From positions 1 through 64,000 of the forward strand of contig NZ_CAAHFB010000001.1 of the NCBI RefSeq assembly GCF_900880625.1: a stretch of 64,000 nt of DNA, read 5' to 3'. The stretch is from Halorhabdus rudnickae (GTDB lineage Archaea; Halobacteriota; Halobacteria; Halobacteriales; Haloarculaceae). The notes beneath the pieces are model-generated. The model was not told where the DNA came from and made no database searches. It worked only from the letters and a program-made list of their open reading frames with translations. Position numbers and translations under genes: made by a program. Positions 29,118-42,426 of the stretch are shown in pieces (within the stretch, counting starts at the first letter, position 1; every line of letters begins with the position of its first letter).

Positions 29118-30983
29118 ATGACATGGAGTCGTCGAGAGGTGCTGAGAGAGCTGTCTGCCCTGTCGGCGGTTGCGGTGGGTGCGACTGGTATCACAGCCGC
29201 CGCTAGTTGTAGCGGTGTCTCTGAATACGATTCCGGAGCAACCTATACGGGCGGCGATCAGGTCGTCTACGACGGGGCGCTCTGGACTGCTGAATGGTGG
29301 ACCTCCGGAACAACACCGTCAACGGATGCTGCCGTCTGGACGAAAGAAGGCTCTTGTGGTGGTGATGACGGTGGGAGCGGTGTCGATTGTTCCGATGTTT
29401 CCGAGTGGGATTCGAGCACGACCTATACCGGCGGAGATCGGGCTGTCTACGACGGACGCCTCTGGGAAGCCAAGTGGTGGACCCAGGGTGACGAACCCGG
29501 TGCAAGCCAGCGGGGTCCCTGGAAGGAAGTCGGCGCCTGTGGTGGCGGCGGTGACGACGGCGGTAATGAGTCGCCGACCGCCTCGTTTACGGTTGATCTG
29601 TCCGCTCCGGAGCCCGGCGAGGATATCACCTTCGACGCATCCGACTCCTCGGACCCAGATGGGACGATCGCATCCTCCGAATGGGATTTCGACGACGGGA
29701 ATTCGGCGACCGGCGAGGTCGTCACCCACAGTTACGGGTCGTCGGGCGACTATACGGTCACGCTGACGGTTACCGATGATGCGGGCGCGTCCGTGACCGC
29801 ATCCCAGACGGTGTCGGTGTCTAGCGACAACACGACACCGAACGCCTCGTTTAGGGTCGATCCGTCCGACCCAGCGCCGGGTGACATAGTCACCTTCGAT
29901 GCGGCCGACTCTTCGGACGCTGACGGCACGGTCGACTCTTATGAGTGGGACCTGGGAGACGGGAATTCGGCAACCGGTCAGACAGTGACGAATAGCTACG
30001 AGAGTGGTGAGTACACCGTGACGCTGACCGTTACTGACGACGACGGCGCGACGGATTCGAACGCGACGACCGTTGTCGTTCAGTCCGACGGGGGCAGTGG
30101 CACCGGCGAAACGACGTTCGCGCCGTATAACCATCTCGCCACGAACCTGGGAACCAGCATGGTCGAGCATTACCAGCAGGCCGAAAACGATGCATTCACC
30201 CTTGCGTTCGTCCTTTCGGATGGGAGCGGCAACGCCTGCTGGGACGGCGAACCGGATCAGCTCGTCGCGGATGGCGTCCACAAAGACGAGATCCAGGCCT
30301 ACCAGAACACCGGCGGCGAGGTGATCATCTCCTTTGGCGGTGCAGTGGGGACGATGATCGCCCAGGACACCTCGGACATCGAAACGATCAAATCCGAGTA
30401 CGAAACCGTCATGGACACCTATGGTGTCACTCACCTGGATTTCGACATCGAGTCAGTCAACAAAGACGCAGTCGACCGGCGCAACCAGGCGTTAGCCGAG
30501 TTACAGTCCGAACGGCCGGAGCTGACGGTGTCTTACACCCTCCGCTGTCGGACGACCGGCCTGACCCAGCACGGGTCCTACGTGGTCAACAATGCGGCAG
30601 ATCACGGCGTGAACATCGAGTACGTCAACATCATGACGATGAATTATGGGTGGGTCGAGCCGACCGCAAGCACGGTTAAAGATTCGGCGAACGGGCTCCA
30701 CTCGGATCTCTCGTCGATCTTCTCCGAGAAGTCCTCGGCGGATGTCTGGAACATGGTCGGGGTGACGCCGATGATCGGTGTCAACAACGTCGGCGGCAGT
30801 CATATGCCGTCCGACGCGGAGGAGGTCGCCTCCTTCGCGACCGAGAAGGGTGTTGGGCTCGTGGCCTTCTGGTCGATCGATCGGGACAACGGCGGCTGTG
30901 CCGACGGCTCTGTGTCCGCGACGTGCAGTGGTATCCAGCAGGGGCCCTACGAGTTCTCGCAGATCTACAATCAGGTGCAGTAA
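29118..30983 (+). CDS. Secreted chitinase: Tat signal, two CBM5/12, two PKD, GH18
   Basis: 621 residues. Tat signal with SRREVLREL and a hydrophobic stretch ends near residue 30. CBM5/12 modules lie at 31-80 and 91-141, each with TYTGGD, a W-W pair and flanking Cys. PKD domains lie at about 150-237 and 240-325 (WDFDDGNSATG, WDLGDGNSATG). The GH18 barrel starts at FAPYNHLATNLG; its active-site strand reads THLDFDIES (near 440), with the Asp-x-Asp-x-Glu catalytic set, and MTMNYGW and FWSIDRDNGG follow. It is folded before export and breaks down chitin outside the cell. First of three chitinases in a row. Confidence 0.92.
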   Translation: MTWSRREVLRELSALSAVAVGATGITAAASCSGVSEYDSGATYTGGDQVVYDGALWTAEWWTSGTTPSTDAAVWTKEGSCGGDDGGSGVDCSDVSEWDSSTTYTGGDRAVYDGRLWEAKWWTQGDEPGASQRGPWKEVGACGGGGDDGGNESPTASFTVDLSAPEPGEDITFDASDSSDPDGTIASSEWDFDDGNSATGEVVTHSYGSSGDYTVTLTVTDDAGASVTASQTVSVSSDNTTPNASFRVDPSDPAPGDIVTFDAADSSDADGTVDSYEWDLGDGNSATGQTVTNSYESGEYTVTLTVTDDDGATDSNATTVVVQSDGGSGTGETTFAPYNHLATNLGTSMVEHYQQAENDAFTLAFVLSDGSGNACWDGEPDQLVADGVHKDEIQAYQNTGGEVIISFGGAVGTMIAQDTSDIETIKSEYETVMDTYGVTHLDFDIESVNKDAVDRRNQALAELQSERPELTVSYTLRCRTTGLTQHGSYVVNNAADHGVNIEYVNIMTMNYGWVEPTASTVKDSANGLHSDLSSIFSEKSSADVWNMVGVTPMIGVNNVGGSHMPSDAEEVASFATEKGVGLVAFWSIDRDNGGCADGSVSATCSGIQQGPYEFSQIYNQVQ

Positions 30984-31223: not shown

Positions 31224-33167
31224 ATGAAACACACGCGACGCGACATACTTCGGAAAGCATCGGAACTGGGCGCACTGGCAGTCGGCGCAAGCGGCGTCGC
31301 CGCGGCGGCTGACTGCAGTGGCGTCGAGGAGTGGAGTTCAAGTGCGACCTATACGGGCGGCGACCAGGTTGTCTATGACGGCAGCCTCTGGGAGGCCAAA
31401 TGGTGGACCCAGGGCGACGAACCCGGGGCCAGCGAGTGGGGCCCGTGGGAAGAAGTCGGCTCCTGTAGCGGTGATGGCGGCGGCGATGACGGAGGCGACG
31501 GCGGTAATGATGGTGGCGGGGACGGCGCCGACTGTTCGGGCGTTTCGGCGTACGACTCCAGTGCGACCTACACCGGTGGCGATCAAGTCACCTACCAGGA
31601 GGCCCTCTGGACGGCCGAATGGTGGACGAAAGGAACGGCCCCGTCGACAAGTGCGAACGTCTGGACGAAAGAGGGGTCCTGTGGCGGTGGTGGCGACGAT
31701 GGCGACGACGGCGGAAACGAGTCGCCAAACGCTTCGTTCACGGTCGCGCCGTCTGATCCCGAACCGGGCCAGGAAGTCACCTTCGATGCCGCAGGATCGT
31801 CGGATGCTGACGGATCGATCGAGTCCTACGAATGGGAGCTGGGCGACGGCAGTTCGGCGACCGGCCAGACTGTCACGAACACCTACGAGAGTGGCGAATA
31901 CACGGTCACGCTGACCGTTACCGACAGCGAGAGTGCAACGACGACGGCCTCCGAGACCATTCTGGTCAAGGTGCCGCCGGAGCCGCCCGAAGACGAGTTC
32001 AAGGTCATCGGGTACTACCCGAACTGGAAGGCCAACGAGGATCAGGACTACTACCCTGAAGACATTCCGTTCGATAAGGTCACGGACGTGCTGTTTGCCT
32101 TCCTTGGCGTCGATGCGGACAACGCCGAGCCGAAAATCCTCAACGACCTCTCGCGGGAGAACCTCCAGCGGTTCAAGGAGCTCAAAGAGGGCCCGGCCTC
32201 GGACACCCGGATCCATCTCTCGATCGGTGGCTGGGCAGATTCGGAAGGCTTCAGCCAGATCGCCGCGACCGAGGAGAACCGCCAGAGCTTCGCCGACGCC
32301 TGTGTCGATCTCCTGCGAGAGTACAATCTCGACGGGATCGACATCGACTGGGAGCACCCCGGTAGCCAGCAGGGAAAATGCCAGTGTGGCTCCAACAAGG
32401 ACTACGAGACCCATGTCGACCTGCTGAAGGCCATCCGAAGCGTGCTCGACGAGGCTGGTGCGGAGGATGGCAAGCACTACTACGTCTCGGTCGCTAACGG
32501 TGGCTCCGACTGGAACGCCGGCGGACTGCGTCACGGCAAGGTCGGCGATGTGTGTGACCACACTGCCATCATGGCCTATGACTTCACGGGATCGTGGATG
32601 GACGTTGCCGGTCAGAACGCACCGCTGTACGGTAACTCTCACCCGACCGAGAACTCCCAGTACGGGCAGACCTACACCGCCCAGTACTTCGTCGAGTACA
32701 CGGTCGATAAGCTCTATGCCGGCGATCACGGCGAGACGGGCTACTGGCCCGGCCAGTGGAAGTACCCACCCGCCGAGCCCGCTGAGTACGACGAACTAGT
32801 GCTTGGCCTGCCGTTCTACGGCCGTGGCTTCAAGGGCACGACTGAGCTGTACTCCGGCTACGATGGGCTCCCGAAGGGTACCTGGGATGACCTTTCTGAC
32901 GGCGATCCGACGGGTTCTTTCGACTTCGGTGACATTGAAGAGAACTTCCAGGGCGAAGACGGCTGGACGAAAAAGCGCCACGACCCCGGCGCAGTGCCGT
33001 ATCTCGTCAACGAGGACGAAGAGATCCTCATTAGCTACGACGACAAGCAGGCTATCGCCGAGAAGGTCAAGTTCGCCAAAGAGCGTGGCATGCAGGGTGT
33101 GATGTTCTGGGAACTAGCCCAGGACTGGAACGAGACCCTGCTGGATACGATCCTCGAAAACATCTAG
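31224..33167 (+). CDS. Secreted chitinase: Tat signal, two CBM5/12, PKD, GH18 (DGIDIDWE type)
   Basis: 647 residues from the ATG at 31224 ([13 protein letters not shown]). Tat Arg pair in TRRDILRK, two CBM5/12 modules ([17 protein letters not shown] and [17 protein letters not shown]) joined by a Gly/Asp linker, one PKD (about residues 173-250), then GH18. The barrel has VIGYYPNWKANEDQDYYPED, SIGGWADSEGF and the full active site LDGIDIDWEHPG (near 368-378), IMAYDFTGSW and GVMFWELAQDW. This barrel belongs to a different GH18 type from those of its two neighbours. The first 260-280 bases are nearly identical to those of the gene at 33445. Confidence 0.95.
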   Translation: MKHTRRDILRKASELGALAVGASGVAAAADCSGVEEWSSSATYTGGDQVVYDGSLWEAKWWTQGDEPGASEWGPWEEVGSCSGDGGGDDGGDGGNDGGGDGADCSGVSAYDSSATYTGGDQVTYQEALWTAEWWTKGTAPSTSANVWTKEGSCGGGGDDGDDGGNESPNASFTVAPSDPEPGQEVTFDAAGSSDADGSIESYEWELGDGSSATGQTVTNTYESGEYTVTLTVTDSESATTTASETILVKVPPEPPEDEFKVIGYYPNWKANEDQDYYPEDIPFDKVTDVLFAFLGVDADNAEPKILNDLSRENLQRFKELKEGPASDTRIHLSIGGWADSEGFSQIAATEENRQSFADACVDLLREYNLDGIDIDWEHPGSQQGKCQCGSNKDYETHVDLLKAIRSVLDEAGAEDGKHYYVSVANGGSDWNAGGLRHGKVGDVCDHTAIMAYDFTGSWMDVAGQNAPLYGNSHPTENSQYGQTYTAQYFVEYTVDKLYAGDHGETGYWPGQWKYPPAEPAEYDELVLGLPFYGRGFKGTTELYSGYDGLPKGTWDDLSDGDPTGSFDFGDIEENFQGEDGWTKKRHDPGAVPYLVNEDEEILISYDDKQAIAEKVKFAKERGMQGVMFWELAQDWNETLLDTILENI

Positions 33168-33279
33168 CATCGCTCAGCGACTCCTCTCCCCGTTCTATGC
33201 TGTAGGGGAACCATGCGACGAATGGAAACACACGCGCGCTGGCTGTGGTGGCCAACGGGACCGGTTCGACAGCGCACCG

Positions 33280-33437
33280 TCGCGCCGTTTCAGGGTGAAG
33301 CTTGGGGACGACCGACACCGGGGGTAACGGGGTCGTCTGCCGGGGTACACGCTGACGGCCGACAGTGGATACGCTGTTCCGAACCGTCTGAAAGCGCGAC
33401 TGTGTGGACGAACATCGGCACCTGCAGTGGAACCTAA
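33280..33437 (+). pseudogene. Decayed CBM5/12 module just upstream of chitinase 3
   Basis: Three frames in turn read parts of one module: DTGGNGVVCRGT (compare TYTGGDQVVYDG), then LTADSG (compare WTAEWW), then EPSESATVWTNIGTC (compare the module end TPSTSANVWTKEGSC). At least two frameshifts and a stop separate them. The last piece ends a few bases before the ATG of the intact gene at 33445. It is what is left of another chitinase, or of the original 5' end of the present one. Confidence 0.7.
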
Positions 33438-33444
33438 TCCAACA

Positions 33445-35115
33445 ATGAAACACACGCGACGTGACATACTTCGGAAGGCATCGGCACTGGGGGCACTGGC
33501 AGTCGGCGCAAGCGGCGTTGCCGCGGCGGCTGACTGCAGTGGCGTCGAGGAGTGGAGTTCAAGTGCGACCTATACGGGCGGCGATCAGGCGGTTTACGAC
33601 GGCAGCCTCTGGGAGGCCAAATGGTGGACTCAAGGCGACGAACCCGGAGCCAGCGAGTGGGGTCCGTGGGAAGAAGTCGGCTCCTGTAGCGGTGATGGCG
33701 GCGGCGATGACGGAGGCGACGGCGATGATGGTGATGGCGATGACGGTGGTGGCGGCGAGACGGTCGACTGTAGCGGCGTCGCCGCGTGGGATGAGAAAGC
33801 GATCTACGACGAAGGCGATCAGGCCGTCCACGCCGGCACGCTGTGGGAAGCTAACTGGTGGGTTCAGGGGAAAACACCCGGAGACAGCGGGCAATACGGT
33901 CCCTGGACGGAGATCGGCACCTGCAAGGCCGAAACCGGACTGAAGCCTTCAATCTCGACGAGTACATTCGTCCAGCCCGGCGAAAGCGTCGAATTCGATG
34001 GGAGCGACTCCTCGGGCCTGATCGAGTCCTACGAGTGGGACTTCGACGGCGACGGGACCGTCGATGCGACCGGCAAGGTCGTCACCCACACCTACGAGTC
34101 GACCGGCGAGTACACGGTCACGCTGACTGTCGGTGACGGCGAGGGCAACACGAACAGCACCTCCGTCACTGTCACCGTCAGCAACGAGACCGGTTTCCCC
34201 GAGAACGTCTTCGCGCCGTACGTCGACGTACTGCTCGAAAGCCAGGATCCGCTGGTCGAGTCCGTCGAGAAAGCCGGCACGCGGCACTTCCTGCTGGCGT
34301 TCGTCGTGGCCGACACCGACGACGATCCGGCCTGGGGTGGCACCGTCAAAGTCGGCGCAGACAGTCCGAACCTGGACATTGGGAGCCAGATCAGCGACCT
34401 TCGAGAGAAGCGGGGTGGGGACGTGATCGTCTCCTTTGGCGGCCTCCAGGGGACGTACCTGGCCGAGACCACCGACAGCGCGGAGGAACTGAAGAACAAG
34501 TACGCCAAGGTCGTCGAGGAATACGACCTGCAGTTCCTCGACTTCGACGAGGAAAAACTCGTCAGGAGCGAGTCGGGCCGTGAGAAGGTCGCGCTCCGTA
34601 ACAAGGCGCTGGTACTACTCAAAGAGGAATACCCGGATCTGACGCTCTCCTATACGCTGCCGGCGCTCCCGAGTGGCCTCCCCAGTCACTCGACCAACAA
34701 CATCCTGTTCGCGCTTGAGGATGCCGCAGAGCGGGGGCTCGAAATCGATCTCGTGAACCCGATGACGATGAACTACGGGAGCGAGTACGACCTCAACGGT
34801 GAGACAGTCATCGAGTGTGCCAAGAGCATTCACGACCAGCTTGGTGATCTCTGGCCGGAGAAGTCAGCCGAGGAGCGCTGGCAGATGATTGGGTTGACGC
34901 CGATGATCGGCCAAAACGATGTCGACTCGAACGTGTTCTATCCCGAGGACGCCCGGCAGGTCCAGCAGTGGGCCAGCGAACAGAACATTCGCTTGCTGTC
35001 CTTCTGGGAACTCGTCCGGGACAACGGCGAGGGCGATCGGCTGTTTAACAACACGCTGATCGACTCCGAGCCCTACGAGTTCTCGGAGATCTTCACCGAC
35101 TTCACCACAGAATAG
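33445..35115 (+). CDS. Secreted chitinase: Tat signal, two CBM5/12, PKD, GH18 (DFDEE type)
   Basis: 556 residues from the ATG at 33445. Tat signal as in the gene at 31224, CBM5/12 ([17 protein letters not shown]), a Gly/Asp linker, a second CBM ([17 protein letters not shown]), one PKD ([16 protein letters not shown]), then a GH18 barrel starting [11 protein letters not shown]. The active-site strand reads [11 protein letters not shown] (near 362-372), so the Asp-x-Asp-x-Glu set is kept with Glu in the middle place; MTMNYGS and [13 protein letters not shown] follow. The catalytic part resembles chitinase 1, while the 5' end is nearly identical to chitinase 2, a clear case of module exchange. 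Confidence 0.9.
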
Positions 35116-35144: not shown

Positions 35145-35237
35145 ATGACACGAATCGGGCGGGATGGGCTACAAGCCCTTTCGGGACTCGGTGCGCTGGC
35201 AGTCGGCGCGAGCGGCGTCGCCATCGCCAGCGTGTAG
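35145..35237 (+). pseudogene. Orphan Tat-type signal peptide of a fourth chitinase
   Basis: A 30-codon frame reads [13 protein letters not shown] then [13 protein letters not shown] and stops at TAG (35235). It matches the Tat signal of the intact chitinases ([16 protein letters not shown]), but the Arg pair is broken (RIGRD) and no module follows. The next bases encode part of an ABC ATPase in another frame, so a deletion has joined the two genes. Confidence 0.75.
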
Positions 35238-35662
35238 CCACCGCCTGCGCGATTATTCGACCAGACGGATTCTTGATGGACGAACCGCTGGCGAACGTAG
35301 ACACCGAGTTGCGGATCCACATGCGGACGCAACTCCGGCGCCTCCATCGGGAATTGGACATGACGATCATCCACCCACGACCAGGCCCAGAAGATGACGA
35401 CGAGCAACCGTATCGCCGTCATTGCTAACGGCCAGCTCCAGTAAGTTGCCCGTCGATGAGCCACTTGGAGGCCAAAAGAGTGACGGACGGGTTCGTCTCG
35501 GGGTACATCCAGATGACGTTCGATCCAGCCACGAACGGCGTCGAAGTCGTTTTCGATCAGGATAACGTCCACCTGTGCGATACCGACACCGAAATGCCAA
35601 TCACACACGAAATCATCCGAGACGAGCCGTTTGACCAATCGGCTGTCGATCGTCGCCGGTAA
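35228..35662 (+). pseudogene. Decayed sugar ABC transporter ATPase (MalK/UgpC type)
   Basis: Starting inside the preceding fragment, frame 2 reads [34 protein letters not shown] and [14 protein letters not shown], matching QRVAIARAIVRE and [20 protein letters not shown] of the intact ATPase at 39635. A frameshift near 35375 leads to [20 protein letters not shown] and a stop; after a gap of over 100 missing residues the frame at 35456-35662 gives VEVVFDQDNVHLCDTD, matching VEIVFDRGRIHLFDMQ. The Walker A half is gone. It is a second, dead copy of the importer gene. Confidence 0.85.
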
Positions 35663-35928: not shown

Positions 35929-37404
35929 ATGCCTACTAAAGGCAATCAAGACGGTTCGTCGAACGTGTCCCGTCGTCGGTTCATTCAGGCAGCCGGTGCA
36001 GTTGGCGTGACGGCTGGTCTCGCCGGCTGTGGTGGCGGCAACGATGGAACCACTACGACCGGGGACACCGGTGGTGGCGGCGGCACCACGGCTGGGGAGC
36101 CTGGTGGTGACGATCTCGGTGGGACGGTCAACGTGTTCGCGGGCAAGGTGTGGAAAGAGAACGAGGAGACGTTCACACAGACGCTGCACGACGCTGGCGT
36201 CCCGGATGCCGTCAACATCAATCTCAACTCCGCGGCCCAGCAGACAGGGAGCAAGCAGCAGAGACTCAGGACCACGATCGACGCGGAGTCGAAAGATCCC
36301 GACCTCGTGTTGACGGACAACGGGTGGACGATTCCGTTCATCGTTCGGGGCGACCTCGTGAACCTAGAGAAGGAGATGGACAGCGATTTCATCTCGAAAG
36401 TCAAAGAAGAGGGCGTCCAGTCGATGGTGCAAACGGGGTCGGACCCGGAGACGGGCGACCTGCATTCGGTTCCCGTCTTCCCGGATTTCCCGACGATCAC
36501 GTACCGCAAGGATCTCTTCAAGGAGGTCGGATACACTGAGTCCGACTTCCAGGAGTGGCAGTCGAACCCGCTCGGTTGGAAAAAGTTCACCAGCATCGTC
36601 GCGGAGGCCAAACAGGCCGGCGACGCGGAGTACGGCTACGTCTGGCAGGGCAAAAACTACGGTGGTCTGTCCTGCTGTACGTTCAACGAGTACCTGACGA
36701 GCATGGGTGGATCCTTCTTCGGGGGCGAGGACAACCTCTTTGGTCCCGTCGGGGATCGACCGGTCACGATCGGCGACGAGAAAGCTATCGATGGCATCGA
36801 ATTGGCGCGTGACCTGATTTCCGGTAATGGCGAATCGCCGATAGACGTGACCGGCGTCTCGCCCGAGGAAGTCGCGGGATGGATCGAACCCGACACGAAA
36901 AGTATCTTCGAAGCCCAAAACGCCGTCGCGCAACGCAACTGGACGTACTCGATCGGCGGCGCAGTGAACAACTTCGAGGGAACGGACGCGGAACTCGGTG
37001 TGATGCCGATTCCGAAAGGGCCGAACGGCTCCTGGCACGCCCAGGGTGGCTGGGTCCTCTCGATGAACCCCTACAGCGACAACAAGTCCGCGGCGAAGGA
37101 AGTCATCAAGGCCTGGTGGAGCGACGATATGCACAAGGCCCAGCTTGACGCCGCCAACTACATGCCGCCCAAGCCGAGGATGTACGACTACGTCAAACAG
37201 CACCCGACCTACGGGCCGTACTTCAAGCCGCTCCAGTACGCTGCCGAGCACCTCATCCCGCGCCCGACCACGTCCGTCTGGCCTACCCAATCGACCGTCA
37301 TCGCGAAACAGGTCAACGCCGCAATCACGAAGAAGAAGTCGCCTGCCGACGCGGCCGAGGCGATGGCAACCAAGATCAAAGCTATCGAAAATCAGGCCCA
37401 GTAG
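35929..37404 (+). CDS. Sugar ABC transporter substrate-binding lipoprotein (CUT1 family)
   Basis: 491 residues. Tat-type lipoprotein signal: Arg cluster in VSRRRFIQAAG and lipobox GLAGC with Cys34, followed by a Gly/Thr-rich tether. The body has type of family 1 extracellular binding proteins (DLVLTDNGWTIPF, VFPDFPTITYRKDLFKEVGY, WAQ-like GGWVLSMNPYSDNKSAAKEV, and a Trp-rich end). It would catch an oligosaccharide outside the membrane and pass it to the two permeases downstream. The substrate is not readable; chitin oligomers or fructosides are the local choices. Confidence 0.88.
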   Translation: MPTKGNQDGSSNVSRRRFIQAAGAVGVTAGLAGCGGGNDGTTTTGDTGGGGGTTAGEPGGDDLGGTVNVFAGKVWKENEETFTQTLHDAGVPDAVNINLNSAAQQTGSKQQRLRTTIDAESKDPDLVLTDNGWTIPFIVRGDLVNLEKEMDSDFISKVKEEGVQSMVQTGSDPETGDLHSVPVFPDFPTITYRKDLFKEVGYTESDFQEWQSNPLGWKKFTSIVAEAKQAGDAEYGYVWQGKNYGGLSCCTFNEYLTSMGGSFFGGEDNLFGPVGDRPVTIGDEKAIDGIELARDLISGNGESPIDVTGVSPEEVAGWIEPDTKSIFEAQNAVAQRNWTYSIGGAVNNFEGTDAELGVMPIPKGPNGSWHAQGGWVLSMNPYSDNKSAAKEVIKAWWSDDMHKAQLDAANYMPPKPRMYDYVKQHPTYGPYFKPLQYAAEHLIPRPTTSVWPTQSTVIAKQVNAAITKKKSPADAAEAMATKIKAIENQAQ

Positions 37405-37674
37405 AGCCCGGTGCTGATGGCCGACAAGCGTTCGATCAAGACAAATCGAACGTGGTGTCGTGGGGAGGACGGCCATCTACCTGGTTACCCGAGTTAGAGG
37501 ACCGTATCGTCGCCATTGAGCAGTTTGGTACTGTCACAACAGAAACGAGATACCATTCGAAACCAGGATGTACATAAAAAACAGATCGCAATATTCAAAT
37601 GATAGACTATAACATAATGGAACGTATGGTTGGTTGGCAATCACACGCAAGCCTCGGCGGGGGTGTATCGACCC

Positions 37675-38667
37675 ATGGGCGTTGAAGGGGCCCAATCGGC
37701 GAACAGGGGTGTCCTTTCGCGACTGGCGACGTGGACCGAGAACCTGAGCGAGCAGGCCTATGCGACGTTGCTGCTGGCACCGGGCTTTCTCATCTTGATC
37801 CTGTTTGCCTTCTGGCCGCTGGTGTCGTCGATACGGATGTCGTTTTTCGCAGACGTCATCGTGGGAGGGGAACTCGGCGGGTTCGTCGGAATCGACAACT
37901 ACATCAAGTTGCTCACCAACGGCAACGCCTTCGCGACGCTGACGTTCTTCGATCCGTCGATGGCCACGCCGATCCTCGAGCAGGCGCTGCTGGTGACGCT
38001 GCTGTTTGCGATCGTCAGCGTCGCCGGGGAGACGCTGCTCGGGTTCGCGTACGCGATGTTGATGAAGGCTGAGTATCGAGGTCAGCGGGCAGTTCGGGTG
38101 TTGATCATCATCCCGTGGGCCATTCCGATCGTCATCCAAGGGATGATCTTCTTCCTGCTGTTCCGTCCGGGATACGGGCTGTTGACCGGCCCGTTGCACA
38201 GTCTCGGGCTCTTCCCGAAGTTGCCACTGAACGACGCGTTTAGTGGGTTCGTGATCATCACGGTAGCCGACATCTGGAAGACGTCGGCGTTCATGGCGCT
38301 GTTGATCCTCGCCGGCCTGGAGAGCGTCAATCAGGATCTCTACGACGTGGCCGACGTCATGGGCGCGTCGAGCTGGCAGCGATTCAAGTACATCACGTTC
38401 CCGTTGGTCTTCCCCGCGTTGATGGTCGCGATGTTGTTCCGGACGATGGGCGCACTCCGCGTCTACGGGATCATCGAGTCCACTGGCGTCGGGTGTACGA
38501 CCACGCCATCGATGACGTGTCTGGTGACTCAGTTCACGTTCGGCTCGTCGACTCTGTATGGATCGGCGGCAGCAGTGAGCGTCCTCATCGCGATCACCGT
38601 CGGATTGTTCATCTCGATATACCTGCTGTTCATCCGTTACAGCAACCAGAGTCTGGGGCTGGTATAG
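37675..38667 (+). CDS. Sugar ABC transporter permease (MalF-type)
   Basis: 330 residues from the ATG at 37675; the frame extends upstream to a TTG at 37630. About six membrane segments (LLLAPGFLILILFAFWPLV, ALLVTLLFAIVSVAGETLLG, VLIIIPWAIPIVIQGMIFFL). The cytoplasmic EAA-type loop is YDVADVMGASSWQRFKYITFP, which docks on the ATPase. A CTATAACATAA run at 37605-37615 suggests an internal promoter after the 270-base gap from the binding-protein gene. Confidence 0.9.
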   Translation: MGVEGAQSANRGVLSRLATWTENLSEQAYATLLLAPGFLILILFAFWPLVSSIRMSFFADVIVGGELGGFVGIDNYIKLLTNGNAFATLTFFDPSMATPILEQALLVTLLFAIVSVAGETLLGFAYAMLMKAEYRGQRAVRVLIIIPWAIPIVIQGMIFFLLFRPGYGLLTGPLHSLGLFPKLPLNDAFSGFVIITVADIWKTSAFMALLILAGLESVNQDLYDVADVMGASSWQRFKYITFPLVFPALMVAMLFRTMGALRVYGIIESTGVGCTTTPSMTCLVTQFTFGSSTLYGSAAAVSVLIAITVGLFISIYLLFIRYSNQSLGLV

Positions 38668-38668
38668 C

Positions 38669-39628
38669 ATGAGTATCGACGCACAGAACCACGACGACGC
38701 GGAAACGCTCGACGATCAGGACGAAGAGTCGAAAAACCGAATCCAGTCGTGGGCAGCCGACTGGATCCGCAATCCCAAGAAAGCCTACGCGGTGATGGGC
38801 GTGTTCATGGGCGGCGTCTTGCTGACGACGACGCTGTTCCCGCTGTATTGGCTGTTCGCAGTGGCGATGGCACCGCCGGGCCAGACGAATATACCGCTGA
38901 TCCCGTCGCAGATCGATCTGTACGCCTTCGTCGATATTTTCCAGCGAGTGCCGTTCGCGCGGTTCATGTTCAACAGCCTGTTCTACGCGGGCACAGTGAC
39001 CGTCATCGTGATCATCGCGGCGAGTCTGGCGGGGTACGCGTTCGGTCGCCTCAAGTTTCGCGGCAAACTGCCGCTGTTGTTCTCGCTGCTGGTGCTCAGC
39101 TGGTTCCCGCCGGCGACGCTGTTCCTGCCGCTGTTCCGGGCGTTCAACCAGCAGGTGAAGATGCTCGGGCTATTCACGCTCCCTGCCGAGCTATACGGGA
39201 CGCCGGGGGCCGTCATCGCGCCGCTCAGCGCGTTCACCATGCCGCTTGCGGTGTTCATCTTGATGACGTTCTACGCGCAGATCCCCGATGGCCTCGAAGA
39301 CGCTGCTCGGGTCGAGGGATCGACCCGGATCGGCGCGCTGTTCCGGGTCATTATGCCGCTGTCGGCACCGGGAGTCGCGACGGCCGGCATTCTGACGTTC
39401 ATCACGGTCTACACGGAGTTTTTCTTCTCGTTTCTGATGACCGGGGACCAGGCCAGCGAATGGGCACCGATCGTTAACGGTGTCCTCGCCTTCCAGTCGC
39501 AGTACACCGTCCGATACGACCTGCAGGCCGCAGCGAGCCTCGTCGCGATCGTGCCGGTCGCGATCCTGGTCGTTCTCGCACAGGAAAAAATCGTCAGCGG
39601 ACTGACGCAAGGAGCACTCAAGGAGTAA
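38669..39628 (+). CDS. Sugar ABC transporter permease (MalG-type)
   Basis: 319 residues, one base after the MalF-type stop. N-terminal acidic stretch, then six membrane segments (VFMGGVLLTTTLFPLYWLF, AGTVTVIVIIAASLAGYAFG, LFSLLVLSWFPPATLFLPLF) and the EAA loop LEDAARVEGSTRIGALFRVIMP. It pairs with the MalF-type subunit to form the channel. Confidence 0.92.
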   Translation: MSIDAQNHDDAETLDDQDEESKNRIQSWAADWIRNPKKAYAVMGVFMGGVLLTTTLFPLYWLFAVAMAPPGQTNIPLIPSQIDLYAFVDIFQRVPFARFMFNSLFYAGTVTVIVIIAASLAGYAFGRLKFRGKLPLLFSLLVLSWFPPATLFLPLFRAFNQQVKMLGLFTLPAELYGTPGAVIAPLSAFTMPLAVFILMTFYAQIPDGLEDAARVEGSTRIGALFRVIMPLSAPGVATAGILTFITVYTEFFFSFLMTGDQASEWAPIVNGVLAFQSQYTVRYDLQAAASLVAIVPVAILVVLAQEKIVSGLTQGALKE

Positions 39629-39634
39629 CCAACG

Positions 39635-40825
39635 ATGGCACGAGTCAAACTCGAGGACGTAACGAAAGAATACGACGACGTAGTGGCAGTCAACAACATG
39701 AACCTCGATCTGGAGGACGGCGAGTTCATCACGCTCGTCGGTCCCTCTGGCTGCGGGAAGTCGACGACCCTCGAGACGGTCGCCGGTCTCACCATGCCGA
39801 CATCGGGGAACATCTACATCGGCGACAACGAAGTCACGAACCTTCCGCCGAAGGACCGCGGGATCGCGATGGTGTTCCAGAACATCGCGCTGTTCCCGCA
39901 CATGGACGTCTACGATAACATCTCCTTTGGCCTTCGGCTACGTGACTACCCGAAAGACGAGATGGACGAAAGCGTCGAAAAAGCGGCCGAGATCGTCGAG
40001 CTGGAGGGGATGCTCGACCGGATGCCCGACGAGATGTCCGGCGGCCAGCGCCAGCGCGTCGCCATCGCCCGCGCGATCGTCCGGGAACCTGACGTATTCT
40101 TGATGGACGAGCCGCTGGCGAATCTGGACGCCAAGCTCCGAGTCAACATGCGGACCGAACTCCAGCGGTTGCACAAGCAGTTGGACACGACGATTATCTA
40201 CGTCACCCACAACCAGGCCGAGGCAATGACGATGTCAGACCGCATCGCGGTCATCAACGACGGGGAACTCCAGCAGATCGCTCCGCCGTTGACCTGCTAT
40301 AACGAACCGGCCAACCGGTTCGTCGCCGGGTTCATCGGCTCGCCGTCGATGAACCTAGTCCCCGCGAAGGTCGAGGACGGCGACCTGCAGGCGGAAGGAT
40401 ACTCGCTAGCTTACGATACGGCCGCCGTCGAGGGGCTGGCCGCTCGCGAAGAGATCGAGATCGGGATCCGCCCGGAGGACATCCACCTCGCCCAGAACAA
40501 GTCCGAGGCGGACGACCCGAGCACCCCTGTGGAGGTCCAGACCGACGTGCTCGAGCCGATGGGCGACGAGATCTTCGTCTATCTCAAGCCGGTCGTGTCG
40601 TCGAGTGATAGCGGCATGGGCAGCATCGAAGAGCGCGAAGGGCTGTTGATGAGTGTCGACCCTGCGACCGATATCAGCGAGGACCAGACCGTCGAGATCG
40701 TCTTCGATCGCGGTCGGATCCACCTGTTCGACATGCAGACCGGTGACGCGCTCTCACACGGCGTGGTAGAAGGCGCAGCGATGGGTTCAGAATCCGGCGA
40801 GAGCGGAGCCCAGGCCGACGACTGA
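39635..40825 (+). CDS. Sugar ABC transporter ATPase (MalK/UgpC type)
   Basis: 396 residues. Walker A GPSGCGKSTTLE, Q-loop VFQNIALFPH, signature MSGGQRQRVAIARA, Walker [13 protein letters not shown], switch His in VTHNQAEA, and a C-terminal TOBE-like regulatory region (EIEIGIRPEDIHLA). It powers the importer and may serve several permeases. Six bases separate it from the upstream permease. Its dead relative lies at 35228-35662. Confidence 0.94.
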   Translation: MARVKLEDVTKEYDDVVAVNNMNLDLEDGEFITLVGPSGCGKSTTLETVAGLTMPTSGNIYIGDNEVTNLPPKDRGIAMVFQNIALFPHMDVYDNISFGLRLRDYPKDEMDESVEKAAEIVELEGMLDRMPDEMSGGQRQRVAIARAIVREPDVFLMDEPLANLDAKLRVNMRTELQRLHKQLDTTIIYVTHNQAEAMTMSDRIAVINDGELQQIAPPLTCYNEPANRFVAGFIGSPSMNLVPAKVEDGDLQAEGYSLAYDTAAVEGLAAREEIEIGIRPEDIHLAQNKSEADDPSTPVEVQTDVLEPMGDEIFVYLKPVVSSSDSGMGSIEEREGLLMSVDPATDISEDQTVEIVFDRGRIHLFDMQTGDALSHGVVEGAAMGSESGESGAQADD

Positions 40826-40879: not shown

Positions 40880-42361
40880 CTATTCCTCCCTCTGCCAGAT
40901 GTCGTCCATCGTCCAGATGTCCAGCGAGCACAGGTAGGCCGACCCGCGACGGGCGAGCAGCGAGATGCCGGTACTCTCCTCGCTCGGGTACACCCGGGTC
41001 GTGAGCGTTTCGCGCCCGTTGGCGAACACCTCGACGATGCTCCTGTCGACGAATATCCGAAGAGAAAGCGGTTCGTCGTCGTCGAGATCGAGCGATCCGA
41101 CCTCCGGCGGGCGCACCTGGATGTCGGTGTCAGTGCTCGATCGACCCGTCTCGATGCCGAGAGCGTCGCTGCCGCGCCAGTAGGACACGGTCGTCCGTTC
41201 GGATCCGTCGGGTGAGCGTAGTACCGCGAGGTCGATCTGATCGGCGTCGCCGGGATCGACCTCGGCACGGAGTTCGATGCTACGGCCCCCTGACTCGGGG
41301 CATCGCCACTCCGTCTCGGACGGGAGAGACACGGAGCCGACGTGGCGGTGGTTCCGCCGCAGCGTCGCGAGTTCCTCGACTGGGTCGAGACGGAGACGCC
41401 CGTCCTCGATAGAGAGATCGCGTGGCAGTCCGATCACGCCGGTCCAGCCCTCGGTCGGATCGGCCTGCCAGTCTCGCCGGCCCTCGACCACGTTGAAGAA
41501 AGCGACGCGGCGATCTCCCTCCTGGAGCACCGACGGGGCGTGCAGGTTCCCCTGATCGACCGGGCCGTGGTTCAGCCGACCGTGTGCTTCGACGTCGAAC
41601 GTCGCCTCGTCCTCGTCGTACTCGCCGAGGTAATACTGTGGGCCCCGCGGGTGAGAGAAAAAGAGGAGCACGTGGGTTCCGTCGAGAGCGAAGAAGTTCG
41701 GGACGGCCCCGTCCTCGTCGGGATCGGTGTGAAAGCCGTCCTGAACTAGCGGCCCGCGATAGGTCCACTCGTGAAGATCGTCCGATTCGAAGAGAAACTC
41801 TGTGGTCTGTCGATCGGTCTTCCAGCCCGACAGCGAGCGATAGGTCTCGCCGTCTTTCCACAGGCAGGGGTCGAAGATCTCGTAGGGGGCGTCCTCGTCG
41901 ATCGGGACGACGGGATTGTCCTCGAATCGCTCGAACTCGAGTAGATAGTCGTCCGACCCCGTGGCGATGCAGTTGCCCGCGTCCGTCCCGAAGTACATCA
42001 GGACGGCACGGTCGTCCTCGACGAGAGCCTGTCCGCTGTAACAGCCACGCTCCGGACCGCCGTCGGGCGAGAGCGCGATCGGGAGATCCCGCCAGTGGAC
42101 GAGGTCGTCGCTGACGGCGTGCCCCCAGTGCATGGCCTCGCTCCAGTCGCGCGTCTCGGAGACATCGGGCGGCCAGTACTGGTAGAAGAGGTGATAGCGA
42201 CCGTCCCAGTACAGCGCCCCGTTCGGGTCGTGGAGTAGTCCGCCTGGCGGGAAGAAGTGGTAGTTCGGCCGGTACGGATCGTCGTTGAATCGTCGTCGCC
42301 GCGCTCGTGTGGCGGACGTTCGCCGCTCGATCGCGTCCGGGAGGTCCGTCGCGTAGTGCAT
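40880..42361 (-). CDS. GH32-type beta-fructosidase-like enzyme with atypical acid/base region
   Basis: 493 residues from the ATG at 42361; an upstream ATG (42388) overlaps the TATA box GTTTTATGCC and is less likely. The five-blade propeller starts NYHFFPPGGLLHDPNGALYW (nucleophile Asp in HDPNG), with MHWGHAVSDDLVHW, IFDPCLWKDG (Asp of the RDP motif), and a C-terminal beta sandwich with SLRIFVDRSIVEVFANGR. Where GH32 enzymes have the acid/base Glu in WECPD, this protein reads EDGAVPNFFAL, so no Glu is in place. No signal peptide, so it would act in the cytoplasm on imported sugar. Convergent with the importer operon, close to the TrmB-like gene. Confidence 0.85.
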   Translation of the reverse strand: MHYATDLPDAIERRTSATRARRRRFNDDPYRPNYHFFPPGGLLHDPNGALYWDGRYHLFYQYWPPDVSETRDWSEAMHWGHAVSDDLVHWRDLPIALSPDGGPERGCYSGQALVEDDRAVLMYFGTDAGNCIATGSDDYLLEFERFEDNPVVPIDEDAPYEIFDPCLWKDGETYRSLSGWKTDRQTTEFLFESDDLHEWTYRGPLVQDGFHTDPDEDGAVPNFFALDGTHVLLFFSHPRGPQYYLGEYDEDEATFDVEAHGRLNHGPVDQGNLHAPSVLQEGDRRVAFFNVVEGRRDWQADPTEGWTGVIGLPRDLSIEDGRLRLDPVEELATLRRNHRHVGSVSLPSETEWRCPESGGRSIELRAEVDPGDADQIDLAVLRSPDGSERTTVSYWRGSDALGIETGRSSTDTDIQVRPPEVGSLDLDDDEPLSLRIFVDRSIVEVFANGRETLTTRVYPSEESTGISLLARRGSAYLCSLDIWTMDDIWQREE

Positions 42362-42426
42362 ACTACGAAAGCGAGCGAGCGACGGCATAAAACCGACGAG
42401 TACGCGGCGAAGACAGTCCCGAGCCG

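Follow-up and report, generated by a model that had tools for sequence, protein, structure and literature searches.

Mosaic 5' modules in the tandem chitinase genes of Halorhabdus rudnickae and probable gene conversion between neighbouring genes in haloarchaeal chitinase clusters

Gene conversion and concerted evolution make the copies within one genome closer to each other than to their orthologues, over tracts of a few hundred bases. The process considered here is of this known kind and shows the same features. However, concerted evolution usually concerns whole near-identical genes (rRNA, tuf), whereas in the present case the enzymes differ otherwise and their accessory modules alone are affected. 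Haloarchaea are polyploid, and gene conversion between their chromosome copies is very efficient and has been well studied (PMC8223754); the tracts obtained experimentally in Haloferax are much longer than the tract described below (PMC8223754), which weighs against conversion as its origin.

The closest archaeal precedent found was the mtrA-1/mtrA-2 pair of methanogens (PMC4632066). As in the present case, these are archaeal paralogues in which one domain is homogenised within genomes, the other differs, and the domain trees conflict. Nevertheless, mtrA-1 and mtrA-2 are a pair of paralogues derived from a single gene and located in an operon, whereas modules are shared here among several GH18 clades and other CBM-bearing proteins, and the shared tracts cover the signal, the CBM or the PKD. 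Haloarchaeal chitinase clusters with the same CBM5/PKD/GH18 architecture and ABC transporter genes, and with variable CBM and PKD content, are described in two papers (Natrarchaeobius, PMC12343721; PMC4569967, which cites the Haloferax mediterranei operon). The main text of PMC12343721 describes variable domain numbers and does not use the term gene conversion. A literature search that did not extend to most subscription journals found no report of glycoside hydrolases or haloarchaeal chitinases undergoing gene conversion, so priority cannot be claimed.

The chitinase locus and the shared module

The source genome, from one strain of Halorhabdus rudnickae, is 3.36 Mb in 6 contigs, and the window is the whole analysed stretch of 64,000 nucleotides. 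Three chitinase genes, designated A, B, and C, lie head to tail on the plus strand of the window and are followed by an ABC transporter. Gene A (29118-30983) was assigned by Pfam the order Tat signal-CBM5/12-CBM5/12-PKD-PKD-GH18. Gene B (31224-33167 in the list of open reading frames) and gene C (33445-35115) both have the order Tat signal-CBM-CBM-PKD-GH18, and the first-pass annotation had placed their start codons correctly at 31224 and 33445.

The GH18 domains of B and C are of different types. That of B (motif DGIDIDWE at 32331-32354; PF00704 match of 228 bits) resembles bacterial ChiA1 in its match to ChiA1-like structures. That of C (motif DFDEE at 34540-34554) matches the Pyrococcus furiosus chitinase 2dsk (E=2e-51), as does the domain of A (PDB sequence match, E=4e-47; motif DFDIE at 30438-30452). 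Both the contrast between the catalytic domains of B and C and the likeness of the C barrel to the DFDIE barrel of A, which had been read from the motifs, were thus borne out. A and B scored above the Pfam GH18 cut-off, whereas C reached 22.7 bits, below the cut-off of 29.6; in the alignment, LDFDEE of C falls on LDFDIE of 2dsk, so that D-x-D-x-E is retained including the last Glu. Judged by GH18 sequence match and the D-x-D-x-E motif, all three are members of the family. NCBIfam contributed no useful names.

The transporter (35929-40825, plus strand; binding protein, two permeases, ATPase) appears intact from its open reading frames and an SBP_bac_1 match; its permeases and ATPase were named from sequence, and it serves as context only. 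A minus-strand gene of GH32 (fructan/sucrose type) at 40880-42388 adjoins it, so the transporter substrate may not be chitobiose.

As shown by the alignment of B and C from their ATG codons, identity was 95% over nucleotides 1-279. Thirteen codons differed in the module, and 11 of these 13 differences were silent. This confirms the observation of near-identical 5' modules on different GH18 types, with the likeness of the first 260-280 bases extending to silent sites. The best single breakpoint fell after nucleotide 296 of B, in the Gly/Asp linker, with 94.3% identity on its left against 49.5% on its right; its log-likelihood gain was 119.5, compared to at most 10.8 in 1000 shuffles. In 60-nucleotide windows, identity was 0.92-0.98 up to nucleotide 300 and 0.38-0.75 thereafter, the second CBM and the PKD of the two genes being included in the diverged part. 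The break anticipated near the linker was therefore sharp, and a smooth fall in identity was not seen. On the other side, the local identity starts 2 nucleotides 5' of the ATG, and the first 60 bases upstream had an identity of 0.30, which equals the random level. By alignment and breakpoint, the shared module of signal, first CBM5/12, and the start of the Gly/Asp linker occupies 31224-31519 in B and 33445-33740 in C (plus strand).

This module pair had a segment score of 220, whereas none of 3654 different-genus module pairs scored above 81; the likeness is thus greatly in excess of what chance or protein conservation would give. Identity at fourfold sites was 0.86, compared to a mean of 0.43 for different-genus orthologous modules. 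Both modules are under purifying selection (NG86 over 92 codons: dN 0.009, dS 0.22, dN/dS about 0.04). The first-pass annotation had called the event recent, a word that needs a qualifier, since two species within a related genus are separated by the same dS (0.22; G029_3 vs G042_3).

Further module-like sequences were found in the genome. The second CBM5/12 of gene A (29388-29540, plus strand; own-genome DNA search, blastn, domain table) matched the shared module at 79% over 29403-29563 and is probably an older relative of it. On contig C6 (L138, 5869-7833), a subtilase with a PKD and two C-terminal CBM5/12 domains showed 71-76% DNA identity to the shared module.

Gene C is flanked by decayed sequences, all on the plus strand. 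A frameshifted 5' module (signal and CBM5/12) at 33205-33438 stops 6 nucleotides before the ATG of C. Its CBM part gave a best blastp E of 1.9e-6, and its alignment to known modules scored 107, compared to a mean of 57 and a maximum of 70 for shuffles and a maximum of 85 for random stretches of the window (60 draws each). It was closest to modules of other enzymes, the best being the GH20-type G042_5 from another genus, and less close to those of C orthologues; aligned as nucleotides with the B or the C module by itself, it gave no significant score (z 2.4 and 0.4). Behind C, a thirty-residue open reading frame at 35145-35237 resembles a truncated Tat signal, with RR changed to GR. An own-genome DNA search matched its positions 35181-35222 to the B module (88% over 42 nucleotides, E=4e-8), and it is likely the remnant of a further module copy. 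MalK-like ABC ATPase fragments at 35225-35617, which matched the intact ATPase (39635-40825) in blastp with 69% identity over 51 residues (E=3e-16), appear to be the relic of a duplicated transporter gene. The relics before and behind C indicate that copies of modules and of transporter genes have come and gone in the cluster. In the A-B intergenic region, the search gave one marginal reverse-strand match (E=0.03), which was put down to chance.

Conflicting trees and recurrence in other haloarchaea

The GH18 domains and 5' modules of haloarchaeal clusters found in two genome searches were compared, and 111 proteins with signal and CBM5/12 from 24 haloarchaeal genomes were retained. The GH18 domains grouped by enzyme type, whereas the 5' modules grouped by genus. 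On the GH18 tree, the genome label was scattered (84 changes vs a shuffled mean of 78.7); on the module tree it was clustered (71 changes vs a shuffled mean of 90.9), and none of 200 shuffles was as low. For the same 92 proteins, the module tree explained the genus label with 18 changes, where the GH18 tree required 36. For the catalytic-clade label, the module trees required 37 (DNA) or 39 (protein) changes, compared to 11 for the GH18 tree; since the clades were drawn from this last tree, its count of 11 is as low as their definition allows, and it is the 37-39 and the genus counts that carry information.

The modules of B and C were sisters with a support of 99/96.9, and the next closest module, from the same genus (G005), is carried on a third GH18 clade. 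In the AU test, trees that held the B module together with those of B's GH18 orthologues were rejected at p=1.9e-6, and the corresponding trees for C at p=4.2e-4. Over the affected stretch, the paralogues in one genome are therefore more alike than orthologues. The disagreement expected between separate CBM and GH18 trees is strong, and gene conversion or the copying of a 5' cassette, proposed at first reading, was the right pair of alternatives in view of the sharp breakpoint and this tree conflict.

Pairs of different catalytic clades within one genome, with 91-93% module identity, were also found in Natrarchaeobius chitinivorans (G364), G028, and G053. For each part of the genes, same-genome pairs of different GH18 clades were set against 900 different-genus pairs. 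Genomes holding a pair that scored above all 900 numbered 0 for the 120 nucleotides upstream, 9 for the signal, 14 for the CBM, 10 for the linker/PKD, and 1 for the catalytic part; as the pairs are mutually non-independent, the genome counts are the safer figures. Moreover, CBM sharing was confined to pairs of the same locus, with a mean of 34.0 (n=114) compared to 15.4 between loci (n=32) and 14.1 between different genera. This generality of the pattern across haloarchaeal chitinase clusters had been missed by the first-pass annotation. Same-genus pairs of different clades gave 0.629 and same-genome pairs 0.648, suggesting that part of the genus-level grouping predates the species splits. At the protein level, CBM selection specific to a lineage could reinforce this grouping, and both points weigh against conversion.

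In genes 6 and 9 of N. chitinivorans, the tract stops inside the CBM and a second patch lies in the PKD; in genes 1 and 2 of G028, the signal and the PKD are shared and the CBMs in between are unlike. In the pairs of G364, G028, and G053, some tract ends lie inside homologous sequence, whereas in B and C the edges fall where homology can no longer be aligned.

At both the protein and the tree level, the same modules also occur in GH20 and other CBM-bearing proteins. GH20 hexosaminidases and a GH5 cellulase-like protein with a chitinase-type Tat signal-CBM-PKD front end were found at L121 (758-3202), L158 (13632-15836), and L167 (2727-4361). In or near chitinase clusters, there were also proteins with Tat signal, CBM5/12, and PKD at L128 (9856-11487), L129 (13630-15264), L159 (5797-7623), and L170 (4388-6073), whose further residues, about 300-400 in number, had no Pfam match at E 1e-5. 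At L163 (14966-15205, genome G206), a 5' module is out of frame with the following GH18 part, and this may be a broken chitinase gene.

Explanations for the mosaic

The best explanation of the sharp mosaic, the conflicting trees, the recurrence, and the confinement to neighbours is, in our judgement, probably recurrent gene conversion between tandem chitinase genes, which affects accessory modules only and is limited by homology. B and C would be old chitinases with unlike catalytic domains in one tandem cluster, and both had front ends to convert, because their orthologues in other genera carry them. Non-reciprocal homologous recombination between the two genes may then have homogenised the Tat signal, the first CBM5/12, and the start of the linker, and substitutions would have built up afterwards under strong purifying selection. 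The tract would be bounded by homology, with one end at the start codon and the other in the Gly/Asp linker; since the upstream regions of B and C are not homologous, an edge at the ATG is expected. Similar events would have been repeated in tandem chitinase clusters across haloarchaea, so that signal, CBM, and PKD evolve in concert per lineage and the upstream and catalytic parts keep their own histories. We infer that conversion was the step, rather than reciprocal exchange or insertion.

A C-like module may have been the donor and B the recipient, and this is put forward tentatively. Several C orthologues have a first CBM of type I with GDEPGxxxWGPW, which B orthologues of neutrophilic genera lack, and this distribution hints at a C-like donor. 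Outgroup polarisation of the differing sites gave 5 against 6, which decided no direction of transfer.

The alternative that survives best, although we hold it to be rather unlikely, is cassette insertion. A copy of the B 5' module would have been placed before the second CBM of C, displacing the original signal and CBM of C, now seen as the relic at 33205-33438. The position of this relic just before the ATG of C fits module insertion or gene loss at least as well as it fits conversion; the shared stretch runs from ATG to linker, which are the edges expected of an exported module, and a truncated extra signal lies behind C. Since neither edge of the B/C tract falls within homologous sequence, the pair by itself does not tell conversion and module grafting apart. 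However, the relic is nearer to the modules of other enzymes than to those of C orthologues, and reading the neighbouring open reading frames by eye revealed neither repeats nor a mobile element at the edges. Furthermore, the tracts that are split or end inside modules in other genomes are not given by grafting and fit repeated gene conversion. Together with orthologues that already carry a Tat signal and CBM, these inner ends and split tracts make gene conversion fit the comparative picture better than cassette copying does.

If a whole gene had been duplicated and its catalytic domain then replaced, B or C would be a young chimera, and the same mosaic would be expected for one pair. Nevertheless, we consider this very improbable: both GH18 types have orthologues with signal and CBM front ends of their own in several genera, and the divergence of the second CBM and PKD restricts the young part to the 5' module. 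Selection alone, by constraint on the signal peptide and CBM, agrees with the purifying selection on both modules but is hardly credible given the mostly silent codon differences and the high fourfold-site identity; moreover, constraint does not predict sharing limited to one genome and to neighbours. An assembly artefact, to which near-identical repeats can give rise, is scarcely conceivable, because no result points there, the copies differ at 14 sites, their flanks are unique, and 14 genomes show the pattern, among them some with single-contig assemblies.

Evolution of haloarchaeal chitinases

With gene conversion as the preferred reading, the chitinase clusters might form a lineage-wide pool of export-and-binding modules, in which conversion between neighbours rewrites signal, CBM, and PKD across catalytic families and leaves the upstream and catalytic parts isolated; we give this wider view about an even chance. 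The clusters offer a testable setting for conversion between diverged neighbour genes in polyploid archaea, in which conversion has so far been studied mainly between chromosome copies. They also give a clear archaeal example of secreted enzymes whose parts differ in their evolutionary history, and whole-sequence trees or annotations of haloarchaeal chitinases would be misled.
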